From positions 1-64,000 of IMG/VR virus record IMGVR_UViG_3300032288_004702: 64,000 nt of DNA; one strand, written 5' to 3'. This DNA comes from a virus. A program made the position numbers and the translations under genes. Position 1 is the first letter of the stretch, and each line of letters begins with the position of its first letter. Under the pieces are notes generated by a model that made no database searches, was not told where the DNA came from, and saw only the letters and a program-made list of their open reading frames with translations. Positions 2,302-32,207 of this stretch are shown in pieces.

Positions 2302-2315
2302 GCTCAAACACTAGC

Positions 2316-8231: not shown

Positions 8232-9587
8232 TCAGGCAGGAGCGCTGTCGAAGTCCACCTTCACGAAGGCCTCTGGGCGCTTGACGGCTAGTGCCAGTCT
8301 CTGCTCTGCGAGGATGACGATGGCGTTGCGGACGAAGAAGTCCGAGTGCTGCTCGCTGATGCGGATGCTGGCCTCTTCGCGGTCGTACAGCTGAGCGCCG
8401 GTGCCGAAAGCTCCGACAAGGGCTGTACCCTCTTCCATCGCTGGGGTGTCGACGATTGGCATTCTCCAGACGCGTGGCTCGCCACCCATCGCAACAGAAA
8501 CTGCGATGAGGTATTGACCCTGCTCGTCCTTCGTCAGCTCGATGTCCTCCCAGTCGTTCGGGTGCAATACGACGCCCGATGGCTCGTAGTAAGCGAGGAA
8601 CGAGAGAGTTGCAGCGCGGCGGATTGCGTCAGCCTTGGTGTCGGCGACCGGTGCGGCAACGCCGTCCGACCATGCGTACTCCTGAATGTTCGGTGTCTGA
8701 AGAACGCCGAGCAGGTTCTCGCCAGTGCCATCGCCGTTGAGGATTTGGTTATCCTCAAGAAGACGAAGACCGTACATGAGCTCGTTGTCGATGATTGAAC
8801 GCAGCTGCGGCTCATCGGCAAGAACGTTACGGTGTGCTGCTTCCCAGTGCGCAAGGGTGCGAACCGGAGCCTGCTCGCCAACAAAGGCGAACGATGACTG
8901 CGGCTTGATACCGAATGCGGTGTTACCAGCGTTGCGCTCAGCGACAGAAGAAGCTGAGTTCGTGCCATGACCAGCCTGAAGCGTGGTGAAGCCGAGCTGA
9001 CGGAAGTACTCAATCACTGCGGCATTTGTCTTGCGGACCGGGAACAGGTCGCGAACGCGCTTGGTGCGCATTGGCGGTGTTACCATCGGGTCACGCTGGA
9101 CGGTGCCGAATGAACCGAGACGGCTGTCGCCAACTGCAGTTGTCGGCAGGCCTGAGTACACGTCCTTCACGTTGTATGAAGTTAGTGAAGCAGCAACTTG
9201 CCACGGAGCAGCCATGTTTGCACCGTTGCGGCCACCATTGAGGGCCTTGAACTCTGCTGACTCAAGGAACAGCTGACCGATGCTCTTGATTTCGCGTGAT
9301 GAAAGCTGGCTTAGGTCTGCAGCGGCAGCGGCGTATGCAGCAGCAGCTGAGTCACCTGAAGGCTGTGAGCCCCAGCTGTCAACGTTGTTCATGGTCTCAA
9401 GGTCGCCAAGCAGTGACTTGATTTCCTTGATGTCGCGCATGTTCTTGTCGAATGCGCTCTTTTGCTCTGGAGTAACGACAACGGTGCCGTCCTCAACTCT
9501 GAATGAATCTGCGATGGTCTTATTGTCTGCCATCTTCTGACGGAGTGCTGATTGCAGCTCCTCGATGCGGGCTTTGTCTTCCGACAT
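8232..9587 (-). CDS. Major capsid protein, HK97 fold
   Basis: The 451-residue protein is the shell subunit. Its first ~95 residues are charged and helical (starting KARIEELQSALRQKM), like the HK97 delta (scaffolding) domain. An alanine-rich linker follows, and then LSSR at residues 95-98, close to where HK97 capsid protein is cut (residue 103). After it come typical HK97-family features: IGQLFLESAEFKAL, the MRTKRVRDLFP and FVGEQAPVRTLAHWEAAHRN segments, the GDGTGENLLGVL turn and the C-terminal FFVRNAIVILAEQRLALAVKRPEAFVKV. The ATG has AGGAG 8 bases upstream. A candidate promoter lies about 120 bases upstream and a hairpin follows the stop. The codons are more G+C-rich than those of neighbours, as expected for a highly expressed gene. 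Confidence 0.95.
   Translation of the reverse strand: MSEDKARIEELQSALRQKMADNKTIADSFRVEDGTVVVTPEQKSAFDKNMRDIKEIKSLLGDLETMNNVDSWGSQPSGDSAAAAYAAAAADLSQLSSREIKSIGQLFLESAEFKALNGGRNGANMAAPWQVAASLTSYNVKDVYSGLPTTAVGDSRLGSFGTVQRDPMVTPPMRTKRVRDLFPVRKTNAAVIEYFRQLGFTTLQAGHGTNSASSVAERNAGNTAFGIKPQSSFAFVGEQAPVRTLAHWEAAHRNVLADEPQLRSIIDNELMYGLRLLEDNQILNGDGTGENLLGVLQTPNIQEYAWSDGVAAPVADTKADAIRRAATLSFLAYYEPSGVVLHPNDWEDIELTKDEQGQYLIAVSVAMGGEPRVWRMPIVDTPAMEEGTALVGAFGTGAQLYDREEASIRISEQHSDFFVRNAIVILAEQRLALAVKRPEAFVKVDFDSAPA
9294..9305 (-). other. LSSR motif at residues 95-98 of major capsid protein (predicted protease site)
   Basis: The motif lies at the junction between the helical N-terminal delta-like domain and the capsid fold, close to the known HK97 cut at residue 103. 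It resembles the LSSG motifs of the two giant proteins, so it may mark what the phage protease recognises. Confidence 0.5.
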
Positions 9588-9754: not shown

Positions 9755-10414
9755 CTAGCGCAATTCTTCGGCTAGCGAGCTCTTTCTTTTAACAGTCGCG
9801 CGTGATGGTTCCCGGAGAACTGTTCGCACAGCTTGTCTAGTTTCTTCTTCACGACGCTTGCTCATATTTCTCCTGCCGAGGGCAGTTGAGCCAGTTCTAT
9901 TCGCATAATCAGTCATGTTGGTGCATGGCATCCAGACTGTCCTGCCAGCCTTACTGATTCTTCTACTTATCCCTATACAGCCAAGCTGTCTTGAGCGCGC
10001 CCTGGCGGATTCGGCGTCCATAAATACGTCGGCATCATTATCTCTGACGAACTCCGGGCCAACACCTTTCGAGCCACAACAGTCAAGAGTTTTCCCGCTA
10101 AAACTTGGCGAGGAGACTATTCCCCCGCCATCAAGCGAACCTATTCCCCTGATTGGGGCCTCCGTTAAATTTTCCCACCCCTGGACGTGGCGACGACGGT
10201 TTTTGCCCTTTCGCCTTCCCTGTGATGATTTTCCGTCAGGAACAACAGTTCTCCATTTTGAAGTCTCCGCAACATTGGAGATTCTCTCTAGCTCTTCCAT
10301 GGATGAGCACGGCATCCAGTTGCCGTCCTCCCCCTTGTGCGCGCCGGAGCAACCAATGTCGCGAGCAAGCCTGAGGGCCTCTGCCTTCTTGACGAGCTCT
10401 TTTTTATCGGCCAT
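9755..10414 (-). CDS. Capsid-block protein with two GCxG...WMPC repeats, function unknown
   Basis: The 219-residue product contains two copies of one short motif: LARDIGCSGAHK...WMPCSSM near residues 16-40 and SRQLGCIGISR...WMPCTNM near residues 140-168. Each holds a cysteine pair about 14-19 residues apart. I recall similar GCSG...MPC peptides in other phage structural proteins; a small cysteine-stabilised or metal-binding fold is likely. A third cysteine element, DCCGSKG, lies between them. The C-terminus is very basic (SKRREEETRQ, then ATVKRKSS). It overlaps the upstream gene by 11 bases and precedes the capsid gene. It is probably a virion or head-assembly protein; this is inferred from position only. 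Confidence 0.6.
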   Translation of the reverse strand: MADKKELVKKAEALRLARDIGCSGAHKGEDGNWMPCSSMEELERISNVAETSKWRTVVPDGKSSQGRRKGKNRRRHVQGWENLTEAPIRGIGSLDGGGIVSSPSFSGKTLDCCGSKGVGPEFVRDNDADVFMDAESARARSRQLGCIGISRRISKAGRTVWMPCTNMTDYANRTGSTALGRRNMSKRREEETRQAVRTVLREPSRATVKRKSSLAEELR

Positions 10415-13757: not shown

Positions 13758-14262
13758 TTTCGGTCTCCTCTAGCTGGCGAAGAAGAAGCATCGATTTCCA
13801 TGCGAAATCACGTTCTTCCAGCGTTTTGAATTCATATATATTGACATCTAACTTTATCATTCCATCACAGCATGAATTGGTCAGCATTTTCTGTTCGATG
13901 TCCCTGTCGATAAAGGACTTGACCGCTCTTTCTGTCTTGTCAATCTTTTTCCCCTTTTTGCCAACAGATTTCTTCGCTGGCATCTTGTCAAGCATTGAGT
14001 CTTTTATCGGGCGTGTCTTTTCTATGAAAGTTTCGTACCATGCTCCAGATGTTGGATTCTTTGGCGCATCCCACAGAAATCTCTGAAAGGGTGTTGAGCG
14101 AAGCTTTCTAAAGTCGCGAGCAGTTGCCGCGATGCTCATTATGTATCCCTTTACGGTTGTTCCATCCGGTTTTTCTATTATTGCGTCTTTTTCTCCGGGC
14201 TTTGCTTCGGCGTTGTAGTACACCCTGCTGTCGTTTAGTAGGCCAACAAGTATTGATTTCAT
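13747..14262 (-). CDS. Capsid-block protein with SCCDGM motif, function unknown
   Basis: The 171-residue product starts with a strand-rich region (ILVGLLNDSRVYYNAE), has a lysine-rich centre (PAKKSVGKKGKKIDK), and then NSCCDGMIKLDVNIYEF, a cysteine pair followed by strands. The C-terminus is helical (FAWKSMLLLRQLEE). The cysteine pair echoes CCGG in the two large neighbours. It overlaps the stop codon of the 2401-residue gene by 4 bases and the next gene by 11 bases. No function is known to me. It may be a partner or chaperone of the adjacent large protein. Confidence 0.55.
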   Translation of the reverse strand: MKSILVGLLNDSRVYYNAEAKPGEKDAIIEKPDGTTVKGYIMSIAATARDFRKLRSTPFQRFLWDAPKNPTSGAWYETFIEKTRPIKDSMLDKMPAKKSVGKKGKKIDKTERAVKSFIDRDIEQKMLTNSCCDGMIKLDVNIYEFKTLEERDFAWKSMLLLRQLEETENVN

Positions 14263-17200
14263 AGCATCCCGCCAGACGTGGAGGTTATTTGTGGCCTGCG
14301 GCTGTTCTTCATCTCTTTCATCATGTCTTTTGCTGCTTCGGTTATTTCATTTCCGATAGCTTTAATCAGGACAGACTCGACCGACTCCCCACCCTTTGCT
14401 GCCTTGGAGTGTGAGCGCGGGTCCTCTATGTTGAAGCCTGTTGGGTGGGCAAACTTAATGTTGTTCAATCCCTTGCCGGCCATATCTGTCTTAATTTTTT
14501 GCGCCGCCCTATACTGCCTCAGCATTGCCATGCTCTGCGTGTTGATGTTTTTGCCGCCACCAATTGAGTAAAAATACTGAATCTCTTCTGGCGTAAATCC
14601 AGCAGCCCTTAGCCTGTCCGCTATGGACCGCTCGTTCACTGCGTCGCTGATATCTTCTTTTTCACCGGCAGCTTCTAGTCTCTTGAATGGGATATTAATC
14701 TGTTCAATTTCATTTACATCGAATCCGCCAAGTATCTGTGCCTCAAACGGCTCTCTAGATGAGCCATCTGGGAGGTTTCTATCGAACGAATTAGGCATTG
14801 CGCCCTTTGAGCCCCTAGATGCGTTTACGTTAGAGAAGTCATTGTTGATTGATGACGACAACATATGCAGGAATGCTTCCTGTGCTTGTTGATTTCCGTT
14901 TATCCCATCAGGATTAAGGATTGCGTCGGCAACATCTTCCCTATTTCGCGAGTTCAGCTTAACTGGGCGATGCGCCGATGATATCGAGTTTCCACGACCA
15001 TAGGCAGTTCTCTCTGACACAGATGGTCTTAGGACGATTTCTATGTCACCAAATGCGGTCAAGCCGTCACCAACAACATCTTCATCGCCTATTTCGTACA
15101 CCGCGTCTGGTCTTAGATTTCCATTCCTGGAATTCATTATTTGCTGTCTCTTGGCGTCAATGTGCGACTTATGAACAAGATAGCCGCTGACCGGCAAAGA
15201 GTCGGTTGGTACGGAATCTGGAATGCCTATTCGCGAGTAGTACTCCCTTGCGTAGTTTTCCGAGGATAGACCAACAGTCTTCCCAGACTCTATGTCTTCA
15301 CCCTGGTTGGCATTATTCGCAGAACGACCACTTGATAGTCGCAATTTCGCCATTCTTCCAACATTTTCTCTACCACTGGAGAGCCTTGACGACCTCTCAA
15401 TATCAGCAGCGCGAATAATTTCATCTAGCTGGCGCTCTCTTTCTATTGCAGCAGCGCTCGGGCGTCTTGTGTCGGCTAGTCGACGCCTATTTTCAAGAGC
15501 CTCAGCGTAGTTTGCATTGTTTTTTAGGCCAACAGAACCAAGCTGGATGTAGTCGCCTTCTGCGTACTTTTCGTCAATAAGTCGTGGTGCATTTTCCGAG
15601 AGGTCGACTGATATTGCATCAAACTCCTCTTGAGTTATCGGTGATATATCTTCCTGACGGCCTTCCCACTGTAGTTCAGCACCAAGACGCGCCTCCTTAA
15701 TGCCGAAAGCGTCCTGGAACACCTTTCCAAGAGTCAAACCCTCAACAATGTCTGTTTGGACTTCGTTTGCAGACAGGGGTATTTGAAGTTCTTTAGGAAG
15801 AGACCTATTCCCTACAACAATTCCAGCCCACCTATGATGGCCGTCAAGAATGTAATTATCTTTGGTCGTTAGGATTGGCTGCATAAACCATTCCTTGCCC
15901 ATCTCTTCCAGGTACTTCTCTCTAAATTCTGAGTCAGATAGACCTGGTGACTCTTTGCGTATTCTTTCAGCTACCTCGATGGCTTTTTCCTGAATTGTTT
16001 GAGCAGTGCCGTCTACTTTTGATGCCACTAATTGCTGTTGAGATGGCGCGTATTCACTCGGGTCTACTGTTCTTAATCTGACTGCTGGGCCATTTTCTGG
16101 GTCCTCTACAGTTATTATGCCATTTAGCCAATCAATAAATGGCGTTTCAAGGTTTACCTCAGTGTCGTTCCAGTTTGTATTTTCATAAAGCCACTGTTTT
16201 GCGGCATCAGAAAGATTGTCAAAAGAAGCTGCTTTATGCTCTCGTGCCGTAGTGCCGCCGAATTCATTGCGTAGCGAATGTTTTTCAGCAATTATTTCAT
16301 ATAAAATTCCGGGGATTTCCTCGTCTGATACTGGGTCCTCTGGCTCGTCTAGCTCTGCACGCTTCTTATTTATTTTTGCAATTTTTGCGTCGAGCTCGTC
16401 GGCGAATTCTATTTCTAGCTCGCGATTGCGCTTTACTCCATCTTTTGAGGGCTCCCATTTACCCGCAGCAATTCCCGCCTTAAGCGCCATTATCGCCTTT
16501 GTGTTTTGCCCAGACGACCTACCGTTAGTCTGCGGCATTTTCGCCCTATCAATTCCTATATGCCCTGAACACATAAGGTTATTTTCCGGGTTATATAGCG
16601 AGCATAGGTCGGCCTGGTAGTTGCCAACGTACTCATCTTCCATGTCTTTTCTGGTTTTGGGGTTGTCCAGGTCAGCATCTGGATTCAACTTTGCATATTC
16701 ATCCTGGAATGCCTTCCATCTTGGATGCCCGTCTTCTATGTGTTTTTTAGCTACTTCCTTTACCTGTTTCTCAAAAGCTTTTTGCGCCTGCTCGGTCAAC
16801 CTGACATCCTGGTCCTTAACTTCAACATGGTGACCGAGCATCATGAGAGCTACTGCAGTAGAAACATCATCAACTTCATAGAGGTTTGAGTCTTTTTCGC
16901 TAATTGACTTTCTACCTGACCTTTTAACGGAACCACCAAATCTCCTTGATAGTTCAGCGTCAGACATATCATTTACGTTTTGTCCGCTGTTAATAATGTC
17001 GTCAAAGACGGATAGGGCGCGTTTTGCTACTTCTTTTTCTTGACGTCTACGCTCGGCTAAATTTTCACTTGAATCAATAGTTCTGCCTGAGGACAGACGT
17101 GATGAGCGTTGCTCTGCTGGCATCCCGGCGAGGCGCTCTGCTCTCCTAGATGCACGTGAAGCCTCGTCTGAAGGCGATGAAAACGGAGAGCGTATTGAGC

Positions 17201-20200
17201 CACCTGACGCAAGTCTTTCGATGTCTGCATCAGTCGCGCGTACCCTGACTCTTCTGTCAAAACCTTCGTGCATTCTGTACGCGGCCATCTGCGCTCTAAC
17301 TATAAGTACCTCTTCTGGAACATTAGCAATCAGGTCTGCAACTTCCGGATGAATATCACCTCGAGAAATACTGCCGTCACCGCGTCCTCCGCCAAGCGCC
17401 TTTTTGATGTTCCTCGTGATGGATGACATTCTTGATTCGCGCGACTGGGTCCTCTGCTGTCTTGTGGCAGGCCTGCCAAGAGCATCACTTTTTGTCTTTG
17501 CCATAATTGTCGCCGACGCTGCAGCTGCAGCAGCACCAGATGAAAGCCTTGATGAGCCATCTGGCAATTCATCAACACCTTCGCCGAATGAGCCCCCAGC
17601 GTCTATGACATCATCTAGCACTTCAGAAGTTGATTTAGCCGCCGACTCATCGTAGTCGCTCCGCGGGCCCGGGAATGTGTCCCCAGACGCGCGTCTCTTC
17701 GCAACATATCTGTCTGCAACAGCCTGTATCTTTTTCGAGTGGCTTTGCGCCCATATGGCATCAGTTTTATTCTTTGACAAGCTATCTGCCATACTGTCGA
17801 CAACTTCAACAGCGTCTTTCTGGTAAGAAATTTCTGCCCGTATCGTGCCATCGGAATCCCGGCCAATAATTCTCAGCCTTCCAGGCGGTGCAACAAATTT
17901 CTGTTCGCCTTCTCCGCCTGTTGCCGGGAATAGGCCACGGTCACCCTCTCTCACCTGGACAACTACGCGTCGTGAAGTTCTGCCAGTTTTGGCGTCTCTC
18001 CTGCCACGTTCTGGCATGTCTGTCTTTTTGGTTCTGCTTGTTATCACGCGACCAGAAACAAACTTATCAACATCAACTTCCTTCCCGTCCATTTTGCCCT
18101 TTAGGGCCCCTGGTTCGAAGTCGATAATCGCTTCTATTTCAAATGGGTCCGCGACAGACGTACCGTCGATTGCTTCCATCGTTGGTATTAAGAGTTTTTC
18201 GACCTGCTGAACAGCATCTGCTTCATCGGAAGACATTGGGTCAACCTCTAGGCCAAGACGCTTGAGTCTTGCGTTTCTCTTGTTCATTGCACGCCCAGCC
18301 CTTGTCTGGTTGGCGGGGTCAAGAAGCATCCCAACGTCAGATTCCGCTACGTCACCGAGCTCTTTCATGGCTTTCTTTTGTTCTGGCGTAGCTTTTACAC
18401 GTCTGCGCTCACGTGCTCCGTGGTCAGCAGCTTCTTTTGCGCTCTTGAACTTCTTGCTTGGCTTGGGTGGGGGGCTTATTGTGTCCTTTACCCTCTTATC
18501 AATATCTCTCTTAATTGCCGGAATACTCCTGGTATCTCCAGCTTCTTTTAGATTCTTTGCATGTTGGTCTTTTACAACATCGATACGCTCTGCGAGGTCT
18601 CTTGCCTCAGGCGATGCTGGGTCCATTGTTGAAAGGCGCACCTCATCGTCGGCAAGCTTGCGGATTACTTTTTTATCCGGCATACCCTTTACGCGCTCAC
18701 GCAAGTCATCTAGGTCTGCGAGCCTTGCAATTTCTTCCATTTCTCCTGCATCCAAGAGACCCTCGCGCTCCCTGATGGCCCGTACTTTTTCCTCAAAACG
18801 CTTCTTTTCGCCACTAGCGCCAACGCCATACTTTTTTCTCCATAGCTTTGATGCTTCGTCATATCTTTTACTATGAAAATCGAACTCCCTCTGGGCATCC
18901 TTTATCGCTTCTGATTTAAGAAGTTCGAGCGCACTTCTATCATCGTCTGGTAGCGATGGGTCAATTTCCATTGCACTAAAACCATCAACTCTGCGCTTAG
19001 CATCATCGCGCTGAGAGGCAATTATCGCAGCCTCGCTAAACATTTCCTCTTCTGGAAGTTCGCTGAATGCTGTCTTGAATCGCTTTATTTCCTCGCGCAG
19101 CTCCGATGCAAGTCTTTCATCCCTATCCGCAAGCGTCTCTTCAATAACGTCTTCGGGAATATCGTCCGGTACGGTAGTCGGGGTTGGGATGCGGAATACA
19201 TCGTCCATTGACTCCATAGCCGAATCGTCGTCTGCAGAGGCCCTTTCACGCGCTGCGGTGGCAAAACTGAGATTGTCCATCCACTCGAGAGCAGCGTCTA
19301 TGTCATCGCCATAGATGATTCCACGCTCACGCAGTGCCCACAATTCCGCTGCGGCCTCTAGGGCCCAAACCTCAGTGCCTTCGGCGTATACGTCACGCGG
19401 ATATGAGCCCGCAAGTGGAGCTATAGCCTTGATTCTCTCCATTGCGTCATCAAGTGACTCTATGTTTATCGAGTCGGCAACGTCTGTCATTATTGCCATG
19501 ATGTCATCGCCGTTTAGAGCATAAATAGAGTCAACATTCCTTGAGCCGACTGCGACCCCATCGCGCATTATAGGAACAGATATGAAACCCTTTTCGTCTA
19601 TTTCATTTTGAATCTTTTCGACAAACAATTGAGCCTGTCTGTGGTGTGCCAACTCGTGGAGCATAATGTGCCCCGAAAAAGAGTAAACGCCATCGATTAG
19701 GCCTGCCATCCCGCGAGCCGCATAGTCGGCGTTAACCAAAAAGTCAGCCACTGCTAGGCGAGATTCAGCTTCGCTTCTTGCTCCAACTGCAGAAATCGCA
19801 AGACGTTCATCTGGCCTCATATCGGGGAGCATTGACTCCTGGTTTGCCAGAATCATCCCCATATTTATGTGTATGACGCTTCGCAGTTCCCCCGGAACCT
19901 TGCGCATAACTGGATTGCCATCGCGGTCAAGAACTGGTGTTCCGTCTGGATTTAGTCGTGGAACAAGTTCTGGTGCGGACCTATAAACACCTGTTCCAGC
20001 TTCATCTGGGGAGTTAAAGTCATATTCGATTCTGCCCAAAAATCTTGTGCTGGATGGGTCCTTCATGAACTGGTCAAGAAGTGTTTCGAATAATGCTTTC
20101 TCCGTATCTTGGTAGCGCTTCACGTCAGCATCAAGAAGTCGAGTTTGCTCTTCTTTAGACAAAGAAGGCCAGCCAGGTATTGATTCAAGACGTGCTTCAG

Positions 20201-21464
20201 TAAATCTTCTTACTTCCAAATCCGTCAAACGCCCAGCACCACCGCCAGATATGTTGACCAACTGCACATCCCAGCCCGCACGTCCGCCAGAATCTGAATG
20301 CATTTTCTGCAGAGCCTCTACGGCCTTGATATGCGCATCAGGGTCGGCCGGGTCTATTCCTAGCGAATCGTAAAGTCTGGCGACATTTGCTTTTTGTCTC
20401 GCGATATCATCCTGTCCACGAATTGCACCATTCTTAAACATGCGCAAGTTTTCTGGAACTGGGATATCTCTCCACTCCGGAGCCTCAAACTGCTCCGGCC
20501 ATAGCTCTTTGTAATAGGCGCATCTACCAAGAAATGCCGGGTCTGCCACGCCTCGCGATGATTCGCTCCATTGGTCGTTGTATACGAAGTTGAGCAACGA
20601 CCTAGCCGTATTTCTAAGCCCCTGGTATTCGCCTTCTGCGGTCATCTGCGCTGCTTGGCGTGCAGCAAATCTTGCAAAACGTGATGCACTAAAGCCGAAA
20701 CAGTTTGAACCAGTTGCATCGGTGAACTGATTGGCGGCAGGAGTTCCAGGCGGGCATCTGAATTTGTTATTTTCGTCCCGCAGAACACCAAATGCTGCGG
20801 CAGCGCGTGCTAAAAGTGAGCCCCCCGGAACGCGCGAGGCCAAACTTCTGCCAGGGAGCATTTTTTGCTCAACACCATTGTTTTTATGCTTTTGCAGTGC
20901 GCGTTGTTTTTCTTCGTAGGTCATCCCTGCGGCAATGCCAAAGGGGTCCATGACCCTTTCTGATTCAGGTATTACTTCGTCTGTTTTGGGGTTGACTTTG
21001 TATTTGCTTATTTTGATTGATGGCTTTTTTCTATAGCGCTCTATCAGCTCATCGAATGTCTTTGTTTGGTTTGGGGATGGAGAAATCCACCCAACATTTG
21101 GGCCAGTCCCCATGCCTTCACGTGACTGGAACGATGGGCTAATTACGAGTTTGTCGCCCGGCTCCCATTTCTTTGATGATTCCCACCTATACCCGAGGTT
21201 GTTTGACTCTACGCCAGGCTGCTTATCGCCGCTGAAGTCTCTTTTCTTATTGTCTGTGTCCGTGTAGGCCTTTACGCGAATTCCAAAGTTTGAGGTAATC
21301 GCTTTTACGGCAAGCTCAGGCTCAAGCCTTCCAGTTGATACAGATGAGTTTATTGCACGCCTGAATCTAATTGCTTTTTCGTTGAATCCACCACAGCATG
21401 AAGTTGGGACTATAAGCCGGGCAGAAACTATGACTCTTTCGCGTGTAGCAGGGGTATCCGCCAC
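14259..21464 (-). CDS. Giant (2401-residue) polyvalent-type protein: metallopeptidase, ADP-ribosyltransferase-like and ParB-like domains
   Basis: Visible parts in order: C23-C24-G-G; C237-P-x-G-x6-FTD-x5-C255; a zinc metallopeptidase signature H603-ELAHH with a downstream glutamate-rich helix; a long charged coiled-coil region (~800-1060); a segment around residues 1180-1195 with GEGEQ and VAPPG that resembles the catalytic Glu loop of ADP-ribosyltransferases; and a ParB/sulfiredoxin-like segment with LDGHHRW at ~1873-1879. A C-terminal unit contains GYLVHKS and ERTAYGRG. LSSG occurs at residues 1307, 1457, 2028 and 2043, mostly preceded by SSR, and separates these parts. Multi-enzyme proteins of this sort match the published 'polyvalent protein' concept. 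The start is a GTG with AAGGGGG upstream. Location between protease and capsid genes suggests head cargo. Domain calls are by eye: peptidase fairly sure, ParB moderate, transferase tentative. Confidence 0.75.
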   Translation of the reverse strand: MADTPATRERVIVSARLIVPTSCCGGFNEKAIRFRRAINSSVSTGRLEPELAVKAITSNFGIRVKAYTDTDNKKRDFSGDKQPGVESNNLGYRWESSKKWEPGDKLVISPSFQSREGMGTGPNVGWISPSPNQTKTFDELIERYRKKPSIKISKYKVNPKTDEVIPESERVMDPFGIAAGMTYEEKQRALQKHKNNGVEQKMLPGRSLASRVPGGSLLARAAAAFGVLRDENNKFRCPPGTPAANQFTDATGSNCFGFSASRFARFAARQAAQMTAEGEYQGLRNTARSLLNFVYNDQWSESSRGVADPAFLGRCAYYKELWPEQFEAPEWRDIPVPENLRMFKNGAIRGQDDIARQKANVARLYDSLGIDPADPDAHIKAVEALQKMHSDSGGRAGWDVQLVNISGGGAGRLTDLEVRRFTEARLESIPGWPSLSKEEQTRLLDADVKRYQDTEKALFETLLDQFMKDPSSTRFLGRIEYDFNSPDEAGTGVYRSAPELVPRLNPDGTPVLDRDGNPVMRKVPGELRSVIHINMGMILANQESMLPDMRPDERLAISAVGARSEAESRLAVADFLVNADYAARGMAGLIDGVYSFSGHIMLHELAHHRQAQLFVEKIQNEIDEKGFISVPIMRDGVAVGSRNVDSIYALNGDDIMAIMTDVADSINIESLDDAMERIKAIAPLAGSYPRDVYAEGTEVWALEAAAELWALRERGIIYGDDIDAALEWMDNLSFATAARERASADDDSAMESMDDVFRIPTPTTVPDDIPEDVIEETLADRDERLASELREEIKRFKTAFSELPEEEMFSEAAIIASQRDDAKRRVDGFSAMEIDPSLPDDDRSALELLKSEAIKDAQREFDFHSKRYDEASKLWRKKYGVGASGEKKRFEEKVRAIREREGLLDAGEMEEIARLADLDDLRERVKGMPDKKVIRKLADDEVRLSTMDPASPEARDLAERIDVVKDQHAKNLKEAGDTRSIPAIKRDIDKRVKDTISPPPKPSKKFKSAKEAADHGARERRRVKATPEQKKAMKELGDVAESDVGMLLDPANQTRAGRAMNKRNARLKRLGLEVDPMSSDEADAVQQVEKLLIPTMEAIDGTSVADPFEIEAIIDFEPGALKGKMDGKEVDVDKFVSGRVITSRTKKTDMPERGRRDAKTGRTSRRVVVQVREGDRGLFPATGGEGEQKFVAPPGRLRIIGRDSDGTIRAEISYQKDAVEVVDSMADSLSKNKTDAIWAQSHSKKIQAVADRYVAKRRASGDTFPGPRSDYDESAAKSTSEVLDDVIDAGGSFGEGVDELPDGSSRLSSGAAAAAASATIMAKTKSDALGRPATRQQRTQSRESRMSSITRNIKKALGGGRGDGSISRGDIHPEVADLIANVPEEVLIVRAQMAAYRMHEGFDRRVRVRATDADIERLASGGSIRSPFSSPSDEASRASRRAERLAGMPAEQRSSRLSSGRTIDSSENLAERRRQEKEVAKRALSVFDDIINSGQNVNDMSDAELSRRFGGSVKRSGRKSISEKDSNLYEVDDVSTAVALMMLGHHVEVKDQDVRLTEQAQKAFEKQVKEVAKKHIEDGHPRWKAFQDEYAKLNPDADLDNPKTRKDMEDEYVGNYQADLCSLYNPENNLMCSGHIGIDRAKMPQTNGRSSGQNTKAIMALKAGIAAGKWEPSKDGVKRNRELEIEFADELDAKIAKINKKRAELDEPEDPVSDEEIPGILYEIIAEKHSLRNEFGGTTAREHKAASFDNLSDAAKQWLYENTNWNDTEVNLETPFIDWLNGIITVEDPENGPAVRLRTVDPSEYAPSQQQLVASKVDGTAQTIQEKAIEVAERIRKESPGLSDSEFREKYLEEMGKEWFMQPILTTKDNYILDGHHRWAGIVVGNRSLPKELQIPLSANEVQTDIVEGLTLGKVFQDAFGIKEARLGAELQWEGRQEDISPITQEEFDAISVDLSENAPRLIDEKYAEGDYIQLGSVGLKNNANYAEALENRRRLADTRRPSAAAIERERQLDEIIRAADIERSSRLSSGRENVGRMAKLRLSSGRSANNANQGEDIESGKTVGLSSENYAREYYSRIGIPDSVPTDSLPVSGYLVHKSHIDAKRQQIMNSRNGNLRPDAVYEIGDEDVVGDGLTAFGDIEIVLRPSVSERTAYGRGNSISSAHRPVKLNSRNREDVADAILNPDGINGNQQAQEAFLHMLSSSINNDFSNVNASRGSKGAMPNSFDRNLPDGSSREPFEAQILGGFDVNEIEQINIPFKRLEAAGEKEDISDAVNERSIADRLRAAGFTPEEIQYFYSIGGGKNINTQSMAMLRQYRAAQKIKTDMAGKGLNNIKFAHPTGFNIEDPRSHSKAAKGGESVESVLIKAIGNEITEAAKDMMKEMKNSRRPQITSTSGGML
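15327..15338 (-). other. LSSG motif, residues 2043-2046 of the 2401-residue protein
   Basis: Context LRLSSGRS. It lies 15 residues after another copy; together they flank a short linker before the C-terminal domain. Confidence 0.5.
15372..15383 (-). other. LSSG motif, residues 2028-2031 of the 2401-residue protein
   Basis: Context SSRLSSGREN. It follows the ParB-like region. Confidence 0.5.
17085..17096 (-). other. LSSG motif, residues 1457-1460 of the 2401-residue protein
   Basis: Context SSRLSSGRTI. It precedes the region holding the ParB-like domain. Confidence 0.5.
17535..17546 (-). other. LSSG motif, residues 1307-1310 of the 2401-residue protein
   Basis: Context SSRLSSGAAA. It follows the ADP-ribosyltransferase-like region and is followed by an alanine-rich linker. 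Confidence 0.5.
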
Positions 21465-23189: not shown

Positions 23190-26100
23190 CTACTTTTTGC
23201 CAGAGGTTCTCTTCTTGCCTGAGAGTGTTTCCCCAGACTCGATTCTTTCCCTAGCTGTCCTCAACTGCTCGTCGCTAAATATGTCGTCGATGGTGTAGCT
23301 GGTGCCGAATATTTCATTAAACCTGTCAACCATTGATTGCATTTCTGCGCCAGAGAATCGCGGCTCATTTCCCTTTTTGGGAGACCATGGGGAGCCTTTC
23401 GCCGTGGCAGCAGCGCTCAGTGTCACGCCCATGTCCGTTGCCCCAGTGATTCTGTTCCGATTATCTCTGTTATTAAGTCTTGAATCAGGGAAACTCTTGT
23501 CAATGAACTCGTTTAATGCTTCATAGACAACATATTTTGAGTTTTTAAGTTCTGAATCAAAACGCTCGCCGGTATCTCCGTCTTTCCAGACTGACGAGGC
23601 GTCGGGCAGAACGCCGGTCCTAATCATCTGCGCAACGGTTGCAGTTGGAATTCCGTTCTTTGACCATTCATTGTTAATTCCGACATCGTCGGTACCAAAT
23701 GCGGCAGAAAGTCTTTCTTGCAATCCCTTTTTCCACTCCGCCCTGTCTATGCCGAGATAGTCAAGTAATGGCTCGATTTCAAAGTCTTCTCGTGAAGTCT
23801 TGTCTGCGATTATTGCCTCGCCAGCGCGCGCAACCTGCTCATCAGATGGGTTCAGAAGGTCGAATGATTCGCCGTATAGGTCAACTTCAGCCTCGGAATC
23901 ACCCTTTGTTGCGCTGTCTGGGGCAAATCGTCCAGTTGCACGGAATTTAGAAACCTCGCTGACCTCACCTAGCTGAGCGTACTCATCCGGCGTCATTGAC
24001 TCGTTCTCTTCCGTGTCAAACCAATGCGGGAAAGCGTCTTTACCGAATGTCTCGATAATGAATCTGTCTCGCATATTTGCGCGTCCAGCATTCTCTCTTG
24101 CTAGGTCAACATATGGGATATTTTCCGTCGTGTCGCCATCTGGGGATGGGATAATTCTCTTTGCCTCGTCAGCCGTTACGGGGGCAAAATATCTCCATGC
24201 TGCAAGGTCTGGCTGTTTGCCGAGCTCGGCAACTAACAAACGAACTGCATCATGGTTGATACCGGCGTCTGGCTCCTTGATTTTTGCTGTGTCGGCAGGG
24301 CTCAGTCCGAGCATTTTAGCCAACTCTTCACGTGTTGCTGGCCTTGATTGCGTCCAGCGAATCGTGGTGCCGCCTTCAGTATTTTCCCGTGAGGTGAACT
24401 CCGTTGGTATCCGTATTGTTTCGGCGAGCTTGTCTACCGAAAGCATCCACGTCTCAGCAGAAGGATTCTCGTTTCTGGAGTTGTCGCCAACTCTTCCAAC
24501 TCTGACGCGGTTCTGCTTCATCTGCATTGCCTTGCCAACATCCCTCATTGCCCCGCGCGTTCTTTGCTGGCGCTCATTTACTGAAAGGTCGTCAACATCG
24601 ACATCGATGGCAATGCCACGCTTGCGGACGCCATCCCATGCCTGCATTGCGTACTGTAGAGCCTCGCGATTTCGTGGAGTATCTGGGTTGCCATCTATGC
24701 GTATGCCGGCAAGCTGCTGGGCGCTAAGTGTGCCTGGATAAATGCTGCTTCCTGCGACGCGGCGGCTTCTGCGGCCAGGACGAGTGCCTGTCGCGCCGCT
24801 AGATAGGCGCATAGCTGTTCCATCGGCATTATCACCGTAATCCGCTTCCCCGTCTCCATCTATGTCATTGTCACGAATAGAGCCATCGATATCGTCATCT
24901 GTATCGATGTCGTCAGGTTCATAATCTTCTTTGTCTATGCCAATTTCGTTACCGTTTTCAGACCCAGGACCATCAGTAATCATGTCGTCCGTGATGACAA
25001 TAGGGCTATCGTCTTTTTCTTCCTTCTTATTCCCACGAGGTGGAAGGTTTTCAAAGTCAATATCCTCGAGGCGCGTTTCATTTAGTTGTTTATAGAATGC
25101 TGGCAGAGGTATCCCGCCATCATCGCTGAAAGCGCCTTTGTCAAGCTCCTGTGGGATGTGCCCATCTTTCACTGCCTGCGTCATTGCTGCGCGAATGTCT
25201 TTGGTCTTTTCATCATGCAAGTAGAATGCAAACGCTTTTGCGCCGGGGTCAATCATTTCCTTGGCGCGCGACATCGCTACGTGAACAAGGTTCGCTTCTT
25301 CCATGTAGCCGATAGATGCTTGACCAGGCTGTAGGGATTGGGCGATTGACTCCGCAGGGTCGCTCAGGTCTTCTGCTATTGCAACAAATCTCGACTCGCG
25401 ACCCTTTGACAGCTGCATTGTTGTTATTTCAACATCTCCGCCAGCATGTCTTGCCTCATCGCGTAGCGCTTGACCAATTCTATTTAGAATGTCGGCGCTT
25501 TCTTCTAGCGTTGCCCCCTCGATAACAAAACCATCATAAGCGCGTCGCTTTGCGTTTCCTTTCATGCCCTTTTCGGCTCCAGCCTGCGGTTTTACTTTAT
25601 CCTGAAGCCCGAGGCGCTTGATGATTTTTTCTAGGTCTCTTCTATAGCGTCCATTGCCGCCCTTGCGGTTTCCTGGAGGCTGGTTTGGAGACTGTGAGCC
25701 ATCTGGATTATCGATTGGACGCCCAGTATCAGCGCCATCTCCAGTTATCAGAATACGCCCAGTTGGCTTTCCTGGTTTTTTATTATCTCCGCCATCGATT
25801 TCAAGCTGTGCATACACTGCTTGGCGACCATCATTTGCAAATTTCGGCTGCGGTATTATTATTATTTGAGCCCTTTGGCTATCGATTGCCTGAACTGCCT
25901 CTGCAGCAGTTTTGCCGCGGGATATCCGAAGAACCTCTTCCCGTCCCGCAGTAAACGCATCTAGCTCAAGGGTCTTTCTTTCCGGGAGAAGACTTGGCGG
26001 TATAACCTTGACAATCTCTTTTCCTTTGTCGTTGGTCTCTCTTATCTGGCGCCCTTCAAGGAGGGTCAGCATGCCCATCGTTCCAAGTGGAGGGGCAGTT

Positions 26101-29100
26101 TTGTCGCCCTTGGGAGGCTCCATAATTAGCCTAAATGCAGTATTTGCCTGCTGATATCCAGCTTGATTAAGAATTCTCTCCAAGCCCTTTGCATCATAAA
26201 TCGGCCCAAGCCAGCTCGACTGTTCTGGAAGGCCAAACTTTTTCCTATATTCAGCTTTTGCAGTTGGCGACTTAAGTATGTAATCGAGATGTTTTGTAAA
26301 TTTGAGCAATTCTTCCCATTTGCTCAATGGGATGATTACTTCTGGCAGCTTCGGCAACCCATTTTCGTCGCGCTCAACGGCATCGCTATTGATTACTAGG
26401 CGTACGAAGTTAAGGGCCTCGTTGATTATCTCTGCGTTGCTTCTACACAGAATCATTGTTGGTAGATTGCCCTTATCGGCTTCTTCGACTCTGTCAACAA
26501 TCTTGCCAGCCTTGGGGCCGTATAGACTGTCTCTTAGCTCTGTTAGCGCAACATCTTGGGCATCGCGGTCCATTGCCGATATGTCAAGTTTTTTATCCGG
26601 CGTGGAGAATTTCTTATCTATGTCGGCAATCATTAGGGCGCGAGTTGCGTCGTCTACTTCATCTACCGGGTTATTACCTTTTCTGTCTTTTTCAGGGAGG
26701 AGGGGGTCGAAAAGTCTATTAATAACAGTCTGGGCCTGGCCCTTGACGTGTTTCCACGGGAGCTGGGGAACCCCCTGCTTGCGCAAGTAAAGATTTTGTT
26801 GCCCAAGAACAAGGTTAGCTAGATGCCCAATCACTTCCCCATATCTAAATGATTCTGTAATTGTCAATGCGTAGTCTGCATCCAGTGATTCAAGAATATT
26901 CTTTGCTTCGCGGAAAGCATAGACAGCCTGCCTATCGTCGCCCACAATAACAATAGGAAGATTTTTTCTGTTAGCGTCAAGAACGGCTTCTAGAACCTCG
27001 TTTGAGTCCTGTGCTTCGTCCACCATAAATGCGCCAAGTGGATTTTCTTTTGTTGCCATTCTTTTTGCGAGTTTTGCCTCGTTGTTTTTGCTGCCTTGCT
27101 GTTTTTTAACAGAAGTAACAATCCACTCTGCGCCATCTTTATCGACAATAACGTCGCCAACGGAGTACGAGTTTGGTATCTGGACCTTGTCTCTTGTTTG
27201 ATTTTCGGTATGTGTTATAAGGCCTGGGTCGCTGCGAAGGTCGGGATTTGTCAACATCCACAGTTTGGCAATTGAATCCCGTGGCGGAAGCATGTTGTTG
27301 TTACCGTCAGACATTGCGTCTATCGCTTTTTGTAGGTAACCGACCCATGAGTCTGGGATTTGCGCATCAGTCAAGACGGTGTCTACGGCGTGACGTTTTT
27401 TGCTTTGGCCCCTCTGTGTATCGAGTTCCTGCAGCACCCTTTCGGATGGTGTAAACATCCATTTTGCTGCTTTTTCTTCTTTTGATATATTCCAACGCTT
27501 AAGCGCATTGTTGAATACGTCTCCCATTTCCTCAATGGAGACGAATGTGCCGTCTGGGAGATTGAAGCCAGTTACTTCATACTCCTCCATTTGGGGCTTT
27601 CCGTCAGGGCCACGAACAACCTTCCCCTTGGCGTCCCTCACTTTGCGGCGTCGCTTCTGGGTTATCTGGTCTGGCCACTTATCCATGCCAAGGAACTTGG
27701 CCCAGTCCGTGCCGTCGTCTAGACGCTCCCATCCAAGGGCTCTGTATCCAGGCTCTTCTCCTGAGAATGTTTCAAAAGAGCCATCAAATAGTTCTCTTAC
27801 ATAATCAAAAGGAATGAACTCTGGCTCATCTGGGGTTTTTTCTGCGCTGATGAATTTTGGATTCTTTTTTGCACCGCGCGTCTTTTTTGATTCTGCACCG
27901 AGAAGAGCGAATTGCATTTTCCTGCGCATCCCCACGCCGTATCTCTCGTCCCCCTGGCCAAGCTTCAGAGACCAATACCAGAGCTTGTCGGTCGTGGAGA
28001 TTCCGGTATTCTTGGGGAATTCAAGTTCTGCTTCGAGCTGGTTCTTTTTATTGAACACTGCATAGTAGATATTGCCAATTTGATTTTCTTTTGCAAGCTT
28101 GTCTACTGCCGCCTTCACCTCATCAGCAGACATACCAGAGAAATCGACCTTGTATCTGTCCGCTAGATAGGCAAGCTGCTCGTCGCGTCTCTTATCGCCC
28201 TCTGGCCAAAGGTCAAACTCGCGCTGCAATGCCCACGCAATGCTCTTGAGTGTCGTTGTTTTACCAGTTCCGGCGCCGGCCAATATTGACAATATGCGCG
28301 GGTCTTTTTGTCTTATCAAGCGCATTGCGACATCCATGATGTCCCTCTGCTCATTTGTTGGCTCGTTTGCTAGACCAAAAGCAAACTTCATTGATATTTT
28401 TTCGTCTGTCCGCTCTACCTCTGGGACGCCATCTTTGCGCCCCTTAATTGGCCCGGCTGATTTACCACTGGCTAGACGACCGGATGGCGTTATTACAATT
28501 CCGTCCTTATTCTTCGACGGAGCATTTGGTGAGCGGTCAAATGAGCGAAGCTCGCGTTCGGCGACGCTTAGATTGACTGCGTCTGGAACAAGAGCTTCAA
28601 ATTCATCTGTATCCAACAGGTCTTCCATTGGTCCAGTTATTGTCGTGGTTGGCTTTATGCTTGGAGCGTCTTCGTAGCCGGCAAGCATCGGAACCTCAAA
28701 CCACGTGTCCATCCTGCCCTTGCGCTCGTCGTCCGGTATTCCGGCGAGTCGGCGCATTGTCGCTGAACGATTAAGCAGGTAATCGTTTGCCTGCTGTGCC
28801 TGAAGAATTGCGCGATGAAGGGCGAGTGGGTCCTGCTTCAGTTTCTTCAGCCATGAGTTTAGGTAAAGAAGATGGTCTTCTCTGACGGTTGGCTCAAGAC
28901 CCATTGCGCCCATTGCAAATGCTGAGCCAATTTCAGCAACAAGTTCCTCAAATGCATACTGTTCATCACCGAACTGCAAACCGAGCGTTCTGTTAAGTCT
29001 TGTTGGATGAGAAGTCCAGTGAATGGTCTCATGCATGGCGGTCCCATAGAAAGCAAGTGCATTTTCAAATTGCTCAAACGCCGGCATGTGTATTTTATCT

Positions 29101-32100
29101 GTTGATGGGCGATAGAAAGCCTGTGAACCCTTAGACTCAACAAACGCAGGACCAATCTCCTGAATTACGTTCTCAATATCCTGAAGCCGCTCTTCCTGAT
29201 TTATCTCTAAATCATCAACTTTGTAGAACCTTTCAGGAAGGCCCTCTACATCGTCAACGTTATAAACAGTTTGGACAACGTAGAATTTTCCTTGACTCAC
29301 TTCTTTCCCGTCAGAGCCAACAAACGTTCTTCCCTCGCGAGGTACCAGAATTGCGACACCCTTGCTGCGTGCCCCGGGCTTTAGTCGACCACCCAAACGC
29401 TTCCACTGGCTCTCCCCTGCCCACCTGCTGGTTTTGTATCCGCGCGCAGAACCAGTAAGTGAAAGAATCATCTGGTTCATGCCCTGATAGATGCGACCGC
29501 GCGTTGGATTACGCGCGTATAGCTCTGGATTTCTCCACGGCATCTTCCACTGCCCAGCCTTGTCTGGGTTATCAATTAGCTCCTGTAGGAGGTCGACAAT
29601 GTTCTTTGCCATCTCTTCGTACAGCTCTTGTAGCTGAGATGAATCCTCCGGAAGCTCCGCTTTGTCTTTTAGCTTTCCTGAAGAAAGTGAAGCCAGTGGA
29701 CCGTCAAACTTTCTTGCTTCATCGCGCGAGCGCTTGGACTCTGGCTTATCCAGGTACTTGGCATAACCACTCGACAGCATCTGCGTGTCGGCTGCCTGCG
29801 ATGCTGTTTTTGGAGCCTTGCGGACAATTGATTCTTTTTTGGGTTTTGCTTTTGGCTTCTTCTCGCGCTCCATGTCGCGTTCTGCAAGCTTTTCAACCCT
29901 CTTCATGTATCTATCTAGCTCGGCAATAGCTTTCTTTAAGCGCTTTACCTGCTCTGGGTCGGTCGCACCATCAAGTACACCCTGAAGCTCATCTCTCTGT
30001 GATTCCGCAATTCCGTATTTTTGAGCAGAATCAACATCCGGGTCGTCGATGCGGGGGAGGTCAAACAGTTTTCCGCTACTCAAAACAAAATCATCGGCTG
30101 ATGAGGGTTTTGTGGGGGCTGGCCCACGTGAATACTTGCCCGGCTTTTCTCTGAAATTTTCATCAAGCTCCGGTCTACTGACCGGTTTGGTAAATTTTGG
30201 TACCCCTATTTCAGACTCTGGCTTGGCGAGCTGGCGTGGTGATGGTTTTGGGTTCCTTATCGAGCCTGGCCCATCTGGTGTCGGGTCCGGCGTGGCGAGG
30301 GGTACGCCTCGGAGAAACAATCCCTCTCCAACTATCCCGTTAAGGTTTGCATCACGAGCTGTGAATGGGTCGAAGTCTTCCGCCCCAATTGATGTGAAGA
30401 ATCTTCCGCGCGAGCGTCCGCCACCAATGTTTGGTCTGTCTATTAATCTGCTGCCGATTGCGCGGCCAAGCCTATAGCCAGCCGCTTTCCATTCTATGTC
30501 GTCTTCAGTTAGAGATTTTTTTTTTAGGTTTTCTATAGCGGTATCAACCGCCTCAATCAGTTCGTAGCTAACGCCAGACGTCATGACGATTCCATCAACG
30601 TCGACAAACGAATCAACACCGTGGTAATCAAAAATTGGGTCTAGGGCCTGCTTTACGCGGAATGCAAACTTGGGCATTATCGGAAGCACATAAGCCTTGC
30701 CTGAAACATCGTCATCGTCAGGCATTCCAAATTCGCTGAGCGTCTTATACTTGCGGCGCTTCTTGCGACGTCTGCCGATTGCGCCACGGAGGCCAGCTAT
30801 TAGAAGTTCCCCTGGGTACTTGACCTCAAGGTCATATACGTAATCCTCTTCGTTTACTTCTTCGTCTATCTCGTAGCTCTTCTTGGCCATTGCATCGCCA
30901 TTAACGACGCCATTAGGTATAACCGCAAAGCGGCACTTGCCCTCTGACTCAATGTCCATATCAATTATCTTGCAGGAATTTCCACCCTGGAAAAAGACGC
31001 AGTTCGCGCACTTAACCCCAATTCCCGCAACCGGGTTCTCGGCTGCTGGCTTATATCCAGCCCATACGCCGTCCGAATCCTCGTTGAATTTGCCGTGGCG
31101 CTTTACGATTTTTAGCAACGCATCGCGTAGGTCGGCTTCCTCTTTGTCGAGGTTGTTGGGGTCAAAATCTTGTTCTTTTTCGTTTTCGTACTCAACCGGG
31201 GGAAGGGGGACGATTCTGTTTCCATTCTCCCCAGGCTTAATCGCTATCGGCATCGACGGCATTTGCGGAGGGCGCACAATTCTGCGTGGCTCATCCATTG
31301 GCATCATCGGTTGAGACATTGGGGCGACCGGCTTGCGTGTCGGAAGAACTATGATTTGCTCTGGTGCGCCAAACATGAAACGACCATGATTTCGGCTAAA
31401 TCCACACTTGAAGCGCCCAACCTCGCCATTTTCCATTCTTTTAGCGAAAGTTATTTCATCTTCCCCAATATCCATAAGGGAGACTTTTGAGCCAATGATT
31501 GTTGCTAGCTGCTTTTCTAGTTCGGCGCGGTCGATAGAGTCGTCTTCGTCGTCCATCATGGCCATCGCACCCATTGCCATGTCCTCCGACTTTACGGAAA
31601 TAGTTCCGGTGAGCTGATTTGCCCCATGAAGAACTGGGGAAACCTCATAAAGCTCCAGCTCATAGATGACATTCGCCTGAGACTTCTGGTCATATTGAGC
31701 GCGCAGGGTCTTGTAGCCAATTGACCACTCCTGCTCTTCACCAAAAAACGCAACCATCGCAAATGCTTCGCGGCCTTTTTCTGAGTTAAGGTTAAATTGC
31801 ACTCTTGCAAATAGACCGCCGATGCCGGCCATCTTCATTTTCATCGGGAGGCGCGGGTCGGTATTGGGAACTTCGTAAATCTCTAGAACTTTTCCGATTG
31901 GGTCGTTCCAGTTGTGCCCCCATACAACTCTTGGCTTTCTGCGCTGGAGGCTCTTCGTAAAAGCCCCACTGGAAACAATGTCGCCTACGGAGTCCCTATT
32001 GCCAATGCCGGCAACAAAACACTCAACTATCCCCTGAGCCTCGTCCAGATTAATCGCTCCGGCCTTAGCGGAAATCCCGCTACCTAGCGAAGTTGACTTA

Positions 32101-32123
32101 TATTCGAACAGTTCAGCCGGCAT
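23190..32123 (-). CDS. Giant (2977-residue) polyprotein: prohead protease, ArdC-type antirestriction/metallopeptidase, SF1 helicase
   Basis: Domain order by residue: 1-~180, HK97-type S78 prohead protease with H70 (WGHNW), S134 (EWSIGY) and the ELYEVSPVLHGAN strand; 372-~400, a CANC...C...C cysteine module; ~590, an EF-hand-like loop (DANLNG); ~820-1110, an ArdC-like region (KMPWRNP, then the metallopeptidase H1031-ETIH with EELVAEI downstream); from ~1255, a UvrD-like superfamily 1 helicase with Walker A GAGTGKT at 1283, VDEAQD at 1701-1706, GDDRQAVYAF, and motif VI VAMSRAK near 2283-2288; then an unknown basic/acidic C-terminus. LSSG at 681, 783, 813 and 2440 and LASG at 1217 fall between the domains. 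It follows the portal gene, the usual place for the protease. I chose the ATG at 32123 (GAAGGG upstream) over a TTG one codon earlier. Confidence 0.9.
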   Translation of the reverse strand: MPAELFEYKSTSLGSGISAKAGAINLDEAQGIVECFVAGIGNRDSVGDIVSSGAFTKSLQRRKPRVVWGHNWNDPIGKVLEIYEVPNTDPRLPMKMKMAGIGGLFARVQFNLNSEKGREAFAMVAFFGEEQEWSIGYKTLRAQYDQKSQANVIYELELYEVSPVLHGANQLTGTISVKSEDMAMGAMAMMDDEDDSIDRAELEKQLATIIGSKVSLMDIGEDEITFAKRMENGEVGRFKCGFSRNHGRFMFGAPEQIIVLPTRKPVAPMSQPMMPMDEPRRIVRPPQMPSMPIAIKPGENGNRIVPLPPVEYENEKEQDFDPNNLDKEEADLRDALLKIVKRHGKFNEDSDGVWAGYKPAAENPVAGIGVKCANCVFFQGGNSCKIIDMDIESEGKCRFAVIPNGVVNGDAMAKKSYEIDEEVNEEDYVYDLEVKYPGELLIAGLRGAIGRRRKKRRKYKTLSEFGMPDDDDVSGKAYVLPIMPKFAFRVKQALDPIFDYHGVDSFVDVDGIVMTSGVSYELIEAVDTAIENLKKKSLTEDDIEWKAAGYRLGRAIGSRLIDRPNIGGGRSRGRFFTSIGAEDFDPFTARDANLNGIVGEGLFLRGVPLATPDPTPDGPGSIRNPKPSPRQLAKPESEIGVPKFTKPVSRPELDENFREKPGKYSRGPAPTKPSSADDFVLSSGKLFDLPRIDDPDVDSAQKYGIAESQRDELQGVLDGATDPEQVKRLKKAIAELDRYMKRVEKLAERDMEREKKPKAKPKKESIVRKAPKTASQAADTQMLSSGYAKYLDKPESKRSRDEARKFDGPLASLSSGKLKDKAELPEDSSQLQELYEEMAKNIVDLLQELIDNPDKAGQWKMPWRNPELYARNPTRGRIYQGMNQMILSLTGSARGYKTSRWAGESQWKRLGGRLKPGARSKGVAILVPREGRTFVGSDGKEVSQGKFYVVQTVYNVDDVEGLPERFYKVDDLEINQEERLQDIENVIQEIGPAFVESKGSQAFYRPSTDKIHMPAFEQFENALAFYGTAMHETIHWTSHPTRLNRTLGLQFGDEQYAFEELVAEIGSAFAMGAMGLEPTVREDHLLYLNSWLKKLKQDPLALHRAILQAQQANDYLLNRSATMRRLAGIPDDERKGRMDTWFEVPMLAGYEDAPSIKPTTTITGPMEDLLDTDEFEALVPDAVNLSVAERELRSFDRSPNAPSKNKDGIVITPSGRLASGKSAGPIKGRKDGVPEVERTDEKISMKFAFGLANEPTNEQRDIMDVAMRLIRQKDPRILSILAGAGTGKTTTLKSIAWALQREFDLWPEGDKRRDEQLAYLADRYKVDFSGMSADEVKAAVDKLAKENQIGNIYYAVFNKKNQLEAELEFPKNTGISTTDKLWYWSLKLGQGDERYGVGMRRKMQFALLGAESKKTRGAKKNPKFISAEKTPDEPEFIPFDYVRELFDGSFETFSGEEPGYRALGWERLDDGTDWAKFLGMDKWPDQITQKRRRKVRDAKGKVVRGPDGKPQMEEYEVTGFNLPDGTFVSIEEMGDVFNNALKRWNISKEEKAAKWMFTPSERVLQELDTQRGQSKKRHAVDTVLTDAQIPDSWVGYLQKAIDAMSDGNNNMLPPRDSIAKLWMLTNPDLRSDPGLITHTENQTRDKVQIPNSYSVGDVIVDKDGAEWIVTSVKKQQGSKNNEAKLAKRMATKENPLGAFMVDEAQDSNEVLEAVLDANRKNLPIVIVGDDRQAVYAFREAKNILESLDADYALTITESFRYGEVIGHLANLVLGQQNLYLRKQGVPQLPWKHVKGQAQTVINRLFDPLLPEKDRKGNNPVDEVDDATRALMIADIDKKFSTPDKKLDISAMDRDAQDVALTELRDSLYGPKAGKIVDRVEEADKGNLPTMILCRSNAEIINEALNFVRLVINSDAVERDENGLPKLPEVIIPLSKWEELLKFTKHLDYILKSPTAKAEYRKKFGLPEQSSWLGPIYDAKGLERILNQAGYQQANTAFRLIMEPPKGDKTAPPLGTMGMLTLLEGRQIRETNDKGKEIVKVIPPSLLPERKTLELDAFTAGREEVLRISRGKTAAEAVQAIDSQRAQIIIIPQPKFANDGRQAVYAQLEIDGGDNKKPGKPTGRILITGDGADTGRPIDNPDGSQSPNQPPGNRKGGNGRYRRDLEKIIKRLGLQDKVKPQAGAEKGMKGNAKRRAYDGFVIEGATLEESADILNRIGQALRDEARHAGGDVEITTMQLSKGRESRFVAIAEDLSDPAESIAQSLQPGQASIGYMEEANLVHVAMSRAKEMIDPGAKAFAFYLHDEKTKDIRAAMTQAVKDGHIPQELDKGAFSDDGGIPLPAFYKQLNETRLEDIDFENLPPRGNKKEEKDDSPIVITDDMITDGPGSENGNEIGIDKEDYEPDDIDTDDDIDGSIRDNDIDGDGEADYGDNADGTAMRLSSGATGTRPGRRSRRVAGSSIYPGTLSAQQLAGIRIDGNPDTPRNREALQYAMQAWDGVRKRGIAIDVDVDDLSVNERQQRTRGAMRDVGKAMQMKQNRVRVGRVGDNSRNENPSAETWMLSVDKLAETIRIPTEFTSRENTEGGTTIRWTQSRPATREELAKMLGLSPADTAKIKEPDAGINHDAVRLLVAELGKQPDLAAWRYFAPVTADEAKRIIPSPDGDTTENIPYVDLARENAGRANMRDRFIIETFGKDAFPHWFDTEENESMTPDEYAQLGEVSEVSKFRATGRFAPDSATKGDSEAEVDLYGESFDLLNPSDEQVARAGEAIIADKTSREDFEIEPLLDYLGIDRAEWKKGLQERLSAAFGTDDVGINNEWSKNGIPTATVAQMIRTGVLPDASSVWKDGDTGERFDSELKNSKYVVYEALNEFIDKSFPDSRLNNRDNRNRITGATDMGVTLSAAATAKGSPWSPKKGNEPRFSGAEMQSMVDRFNEIFGTSYTIDDIFSDEQLRTARERIESGETLSGKKRTSGKK
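24795..24806 (-). other. LSSG motif, residues 2440-2443 of the 2977-residue protein
   Basis: Context MRLSSGAT. It separates the helicase from the unknown C-terminal ~530 residues and follows an Asp-rich linker. Confidence 0.5.
28464..28475 (-). other. LASG motif, residues 1217-1220 of the 2977-residue protein
   Basis: Context GRLASGKS. It is a near-match of LSSG at the junction between the ArdC-like region and the helicase. Confidence 0.4.
29676..29687 (-). other. LSSG motif, residues 813-816 of the 2977-residue protein
   Basis: Context ASLSSGKL. It lies immediately before the ArdC-like region. Confidence 0.5.
29766..29777 (-). other. LSSG motif, residues 783-786 of the 2977-residue protein
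   Basis: Context TQMLSSGYAK. It lies 30 residues before the next copy and ends a lysine-rich helical segment. Confidence 0.5.
30072..30083 (-). other. LSSG motif, residues 681-684 of the 2977-residue protein
   Basis: Context DFVLSSGKLF. It follows a proline-rich linker after the protease-containing N-terminal part. Confidence 0.5.
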
Positions 32124-32207
32124 CAAGAGGCCCTTCTTTTGCGTCTATTCAAGATAATAAGCGATTGGGAAGTCTGTTCGTAGCAACTATTGCTTTAAGT
32201 TTTGAGT

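Follow-up and report, generated by a model that had tools for sequence, protein, structure and literature searches.

The LSSR tetrapeptide in the major capsid protein (MCP) of this phage probably lies inside an N-terminal scaffold domain of about 145 residues, which would be removed by a cut near S145|G146. Its likeness to the LSSG motif of two giant proteins of the same phage appears mostly incidental. More interesting than LSSR itself is that the motif is rewritten from lineage to lineage across the giant cargo and tape measure proteins, with the capsid apparently spared. The window analysed is the whole stretch of 64,000 nucleotides, positions 1 to 64,000 of IMG/VR virus record IMGVR_UViG_3300032288_004702, a viral contig 156,276 bases long. 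As relatives, 421 viral contig stretches were matched.

The major capsid protein and its linker

The open reading frame at 8232–9587 on the minus strand translates into a 451-aa protein that matches Pfam Phage_capsid PF05065 (5.5e-42) and a PHROG major head family (4.7e-58). The AlphaFold model compares with HK97 Prohead II (8cfa) at Z 27.6 over 237 residues. Pfam, PHROG and the model thus agree with the preliminary description, which had seen here an MCP of HK97 type that begins with a scaffold domain. The closest cultured relatives are the MCPs of the actinobacterial phages Cantare and GMA6, with 47–49% identity. The features of the capsid gene are:

8232..9587, minus strand: MCP of HK97 fold with a fused N-terminal scaffold (delta) domain (PF05065, PHROG, model against 8cfa)
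9306..9587, minus strand: scaffold domain part 1, residues 1–94, with coiled-coil helices 2–27 and 40–74 and the Ala-rich helix 81–94 (AlphaFold2 model)
9294..9305, minus strand: LSSR, residues 95–98, in the exposed linker 95–102 (translation; coil in the model; aligned to HK97 about 69–72)
9237..9281, minus strand: spoke helix, residues 103–117, counterpart of the HK97 scaffold helix 76–88 (alignment of 95 MCPs; model)
9144..9167, minus strand: KDVYSGLP, residues 141–148, with the predicted scaffold removal site S145|G146 (alignment; motif conservation)

The AlphaFold2 model was built from an alignment of 95 MCPs (26–93% identity) and has a mean pLDDT of 78, with 81–95 across residues 1–70; an earlier model from close relatives only reached a pLDDT of 48 and was unusable. 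Helices at 2–27, 40–74 and 81–94 are followed by coil at 95–102 and by the spoke helix at 103–117, which is resolved as helices 103–109 and 111–117. Past residue 117 the confidence is low up to about 166–177, and the HK97 fold follows thereafter. The position of LSSR in the translation, the helical N-terminus with an alanine-rich stretch ahead of it, and its exposure in a linker, for which a structure prediction had been proposed as a check, were therefore all described correctly.

Among 58 distinct MCP relatives L95 is kept in 49, S97 in 47 and R98 in 46, and S96 is often T. LSSR is absent from several sublineages; about 80% of relatives retain L-x-S in the linker, a degree of sequence conservation that hints at some constraint. 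The genes flanking that of the MCP (9755–10414 and 7327–8130, minus strand) match DUF3721 (twice) and DUF6321.

Predicted position of the scaffold cut

The preliminary description placed LSSR exactly where the HK97 delta domain is cut away. The alignments place it elsewhere. In HK97 gp5 the counterpart of LSSR is residues about 69–72, upstream of the spoke helix at HK97 76–88; residues 101–104 of the window MCP (KSIG) pair with HK97 75–78, and S102 pairs with HK97 S76. The HK97 cut K103|S104 corresponds to S145|G146 of the window MCP in three alignments, the MCP alignment being gappy between residues 118 and 140. The part of the scaffold end that can be seen in HK97 Prohead I consists of helix 76–88 below the shell and strand 92–97, after which comes the cut K103/S104, so that the spoke residues 76–88 are scaffold, upstream of the cut (PMC10275583). 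LSSR lies about 47 residues too early for an HK97-type cut and, judging from sequence comparison, is probably not the maturation site.

Around the aligned point, the pattern KD[VIM][YF][ST][AGT]xP is kept in all 58 distinct MCP relatives. The solved mature chains of HK97 and of Pseudomonas phage D3 begin at that point or no more than about two residues from it. The HK97 chain (1ohg) starts at 104, equivalent to window residue 146, and the D3 virion chain (9ous) comprises residues 114–395, the entire mature chain of 282 residues. The D3 start maps to 148 and not 146, which counts against S145|G146 as the precise bond. For phiXacJX1 (9lbm) 286 of 394 residues are modelled, giving a start near 109 if the model reaches the C-terminus. 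Literature searches turned up no mature N-terminus data for this group of capsids.

A lineage-specific motif in the giant and tape measure proteins

The sequences with which LSSR had been compared lie in two giant proteins, one of which carries the prohead protease that the preliminary description had assumed the phage to have; the probable tape measure protein has the same motif.

14259..21464, minus strand: second giant protein, 2401 aa, with four LSSG and one LASG (translation)
23190..32126, minus strand: giant polyvalent protein, 2978 aa, with S78, ArdC-N, MPTase-PolyVal and UvrD helicase domains, four LSSG and one LASG (Pfam, translation)
31578..32030, minus strand: Peptidase_S78 prohead protease domain, residues 33–183 of the 2978-aa giant (PF04586, 2.2e-11)
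49103..49114, plus strand: LSSG, residue 36 of the probable tape measure protein at 48998–53785 (translation; own-motif match in relatives)
50738..50749, plus strand: second LSSG, residue 581 of the probable tape measure protein (translation)

With several effector-type domains, MPTase-PolyVal and ArdC-N among them, the 2978-aa giant is a polyvalent protein. Its S78 domain is N-terminal and not C-terminal; the C-terminal placement of peptidases is a feature of the surveyed members and not a defining one. QEWSIGYKT of the S78 domain is unchanged in 22 of 22 aligned relatives. In more distant relatives the S78 protease is a separate open reading frame of 474–835 aa.

The two giants and the tape measure protein together have 13 copies of the pattern L[SA]S[GRK], against 1.2 in shuffles. 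Across 31 related phages the short motif of the giants varies between phages and is uniform inside each. The classes are LSSG or FSSG; GLAS, GMAS or GFAS (GxAS); STRS; ISGRM, ISGKM or GVSGxM; GMRS; SKST; GMSS; and GLRS. Between lineages (relatives G001–G049) the motif changes as a whole set. An origin at the DNA level was rejected, since nearly all copies differ in their codons, which argues for selection at the protein level. Common to most of the motifs is a loose core of the form hydrophobic-x-S (LSS, LAS, MRS, LRS, MSS), which VYS|G/A at MCP residues 143–146 would fit. The linked protease, together with the precedent of T4, phiKZ and SPN3US (PMC5694885), suggests by analogy that the motifs are protease sites. 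Motif classes and the protease tree agree, which is weak evidence because the protease and the giant are often a single gene. GLMS repeats in Cantare were considered as a motif of this type and rejected as tail-fibre repeats.

In many relatives the phage's own motif recurs at two roughly homologous places of the probable tape measure protein, near residue 40 and near 580–640; examples are GSKSTT in a phage of the SKST class and GMRS in one of the GMRS class. The first site follows the motif class of the giants (permutation p = 0.0012), and this served as the control for the MCP test below. At the second site the newly examined SKST and GMRS classes matched prediction. In one GMSS-class phage the tape measure protein has only a GMAS variant.

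Other genes in the window include one at 11087–13120 (minus strand) for a 677-aa protein without a Pfam or PHROG match, which has a single LTSG and an LSSK and keeps its size in relatives (about 660–730 aa). A B12-dependent-type ribonucleotide reductase lies at 3470–5395 (plus strand), and a PAKK-repeat protein resembling histone-like tails at 1843–2307 (minus strand).

Comparison of the capsid linker with the motif

Is LSSR the capsid form of the giants' motif? Within the MCP alone a match to L[SA]S[GRK] has P = 0.10, and the proteins of the window other than the two giants and the tape measure protein have 2 against 2.3 expected; the LSSR match in isolation is thus unremarkable. Scored on the LSSG profile, LSSR reaches 0.2 bits, when 95% of real motifs score at least 12.2, and so falls outside the giants' motif. 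LTSR, found in three LSSG-class phages, scores about -8 to -9 bits on the same profile. In fourth place the motif of the giants has G, and the MCP has R, H or S.

Covariation between MCP and motif class was tested in the 31 related phages for which both regions were available and a class could be assigned, in eight classes (G023 and G041 could not be given a motif class). With smoothed profiles the linker did not covary significantly with the giants' motif (p = 0.20), and the HK97-homologous MCP segment showed no significant covariation either (p = 0.43). The MCP window neighbouring the linker gave p = 0.08, and one unrelated window of about 30 reached 0.04. A previous scan across the MCP with four classes found nothing. 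In it the linker (-1.96) beat every derangement locally, and not protein-wide; the eight-class repeat with smoothed profiles was made for this reason. The common consensus L-(S/A)-S-(G/R/K) that had been proposed for the MCP and the giants therefore finds no support in the fourth letter, the profile score or the covariation test.

L[ST]S stands in the linker of each of the 14 LSSG-class phages examined and is missing from most other classes. In one phage, G024, the MCP belongs to the LSSG capsid clade and the protease to the GxAS group, and the linker has lost L[ST]S; another, G012, retains QLTSRE in its MCP despite xSGxM in its giants. On these sequences the association between LSSG class and linker L[ST]S appears weak; it is confounded by descent and not significant, though a secondary cut would be compatible with it. 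The MCP and protease trees conflict for G024 (L079) and partly for G012 (L055), which suggests that capsid genes have been exchanged between motif classes.

Proposed maturation and alternative readings

We propose that the first 145 or so residues of the MCP as synthesized are a scaffold (delta) domain, in which LSSR lies in a flexible hinge between the Ala-rich end of the coiled-coil part and the spoke helix. Once the shell has assembled, the prohead protease, probably the S78 domain of the 2978-aa giant, would remove the whole scaffold domain with a cut at S145|G146 (KDVYS|GLP) or no more than about two residues away, and the mature chain would have about 306 residues. If the protease were strictly motif-specific, a cut at VYS|G would need explaining, and this counts against the proposal.

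Could the protease also cut at LSSR? It might nick the scaffold at L-S-S|R so that the pieces can exit, with the mature N-terminus still near S145. This we regard as unlikely, though likelier than the other alternatives. In its favour, the model exposes the linker, L-x-S is present in every LSSG-class phage examined, several MCPs of the GxAS and GLRS classes have SLGS, GLGS or SLRS, the core shared by most of the giants' motifs is loose, and additional motif sites are reported within SPN3US propeptides (PMC5694885). It is opposed by the non-significant similarity of the linker to its own class and by G012, where capsid and giants disagree. That LSSR is instead the main delta-domain cut, as the preliminary description held, would leave the spoke helix in the mature capsid. 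The same exposure, the distribution of L[ST]S among the classes and its loss in G024 could be read in this way; HK97 and D3 homology, however, places the cut past the spoke helix, the class-defining G is missing from LSSR, and the LTSR of three LSSG-class phages scores far below the motif. We consider this reading very improbable.

A further explanation is that L95-S96-S97-R98-E99-I100 is a helix N-cap box opening the spoke helix and conserved as such. Conservation is indeed seen for L, S/T, E and I/L/V; in L075 the N1 position is occupied by P. The helix of the model begins at 103, however, and its cap would be S102-x-x-Q/E105, which makes this the least credible of the readings. The preferred reading, a single scaffold removal near S145|G146, can be taken one step further. 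One polyvalent-fused head protease may act on a two-tier code, consisting of a lineage-rewritten motif in the giants and tape measure protein and an invariant, motif-poor site in the capsid. We offer this extension tentatively, and would sooner expect it to fail than to hold.

The reassignment changes the expected mature capsid chain to about 306 residues from about 353, a difference that an ordinary gel can distinguish. It also splits apart two things that had been treated as one, a lineage-specific motif in the giants and tape measure protein and a capsid linker without significant covariation with it. Together the motif variants amount to a natural experiment on the specificity of a head protease, and they bear as well on how very large proteins are readied for injection.

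Comparison with known systems

The closest structural parallel is HK97 gp5 (Prohead I/II), which shares the fold, with 40% identity over the aligned part, as well as the N-terminal helical scaffold, the spoke helix, the flexible N-arm and an S78-type protease. The scaffold of the window MCP is longer by about 42 residues, and between the spoke helix and the predicted cut it has an extra conserved segment of GGRNGANM type and a variable linker. Its protease forms part of a giant protein, whereas that of HK97 stands alone. The MCP of phage D3 (9osb, 9ous) is alike in fold and spoke region, and its start at 114 is near the homologous point, but its linker is shorter and its protease gene is free and adjoins the MCP gene. 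Brevibacterium phage Cantare and Gordonia phage GMA6 share an SLGE/TLGE spoke and the QKDI[FY][ST]G motif; the head maturation protease gene of Cantare is free, and in the genes examined no repeats of LSSG type were seen. P1, in which a fused scaffold is removed from the MCP at E120|S121, provides further precedent (PMC9024508).

The giant protein has its own parallels. The polyvalent proteins surveyed by Iyer et al. (2017) likewise combine ArdC-N, MPTase-PolyVal and helicase domains in a single chain, but their assemblin-like peptidases were reported at C-termini only (PMC5512222), unlike the N-terminal S78 domain described here. The proteases T4 gp21, phiKZ gp175 and SPN3US gp245 recognize one short motif across many internal head proteins (PMC5694885), much as a single short motif recurs in the giants and tape measure protein of this phage. 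In those systems the MCP is cut at the same kind of motif, whereas the MCP of the window is unlike the motif of its cargo.
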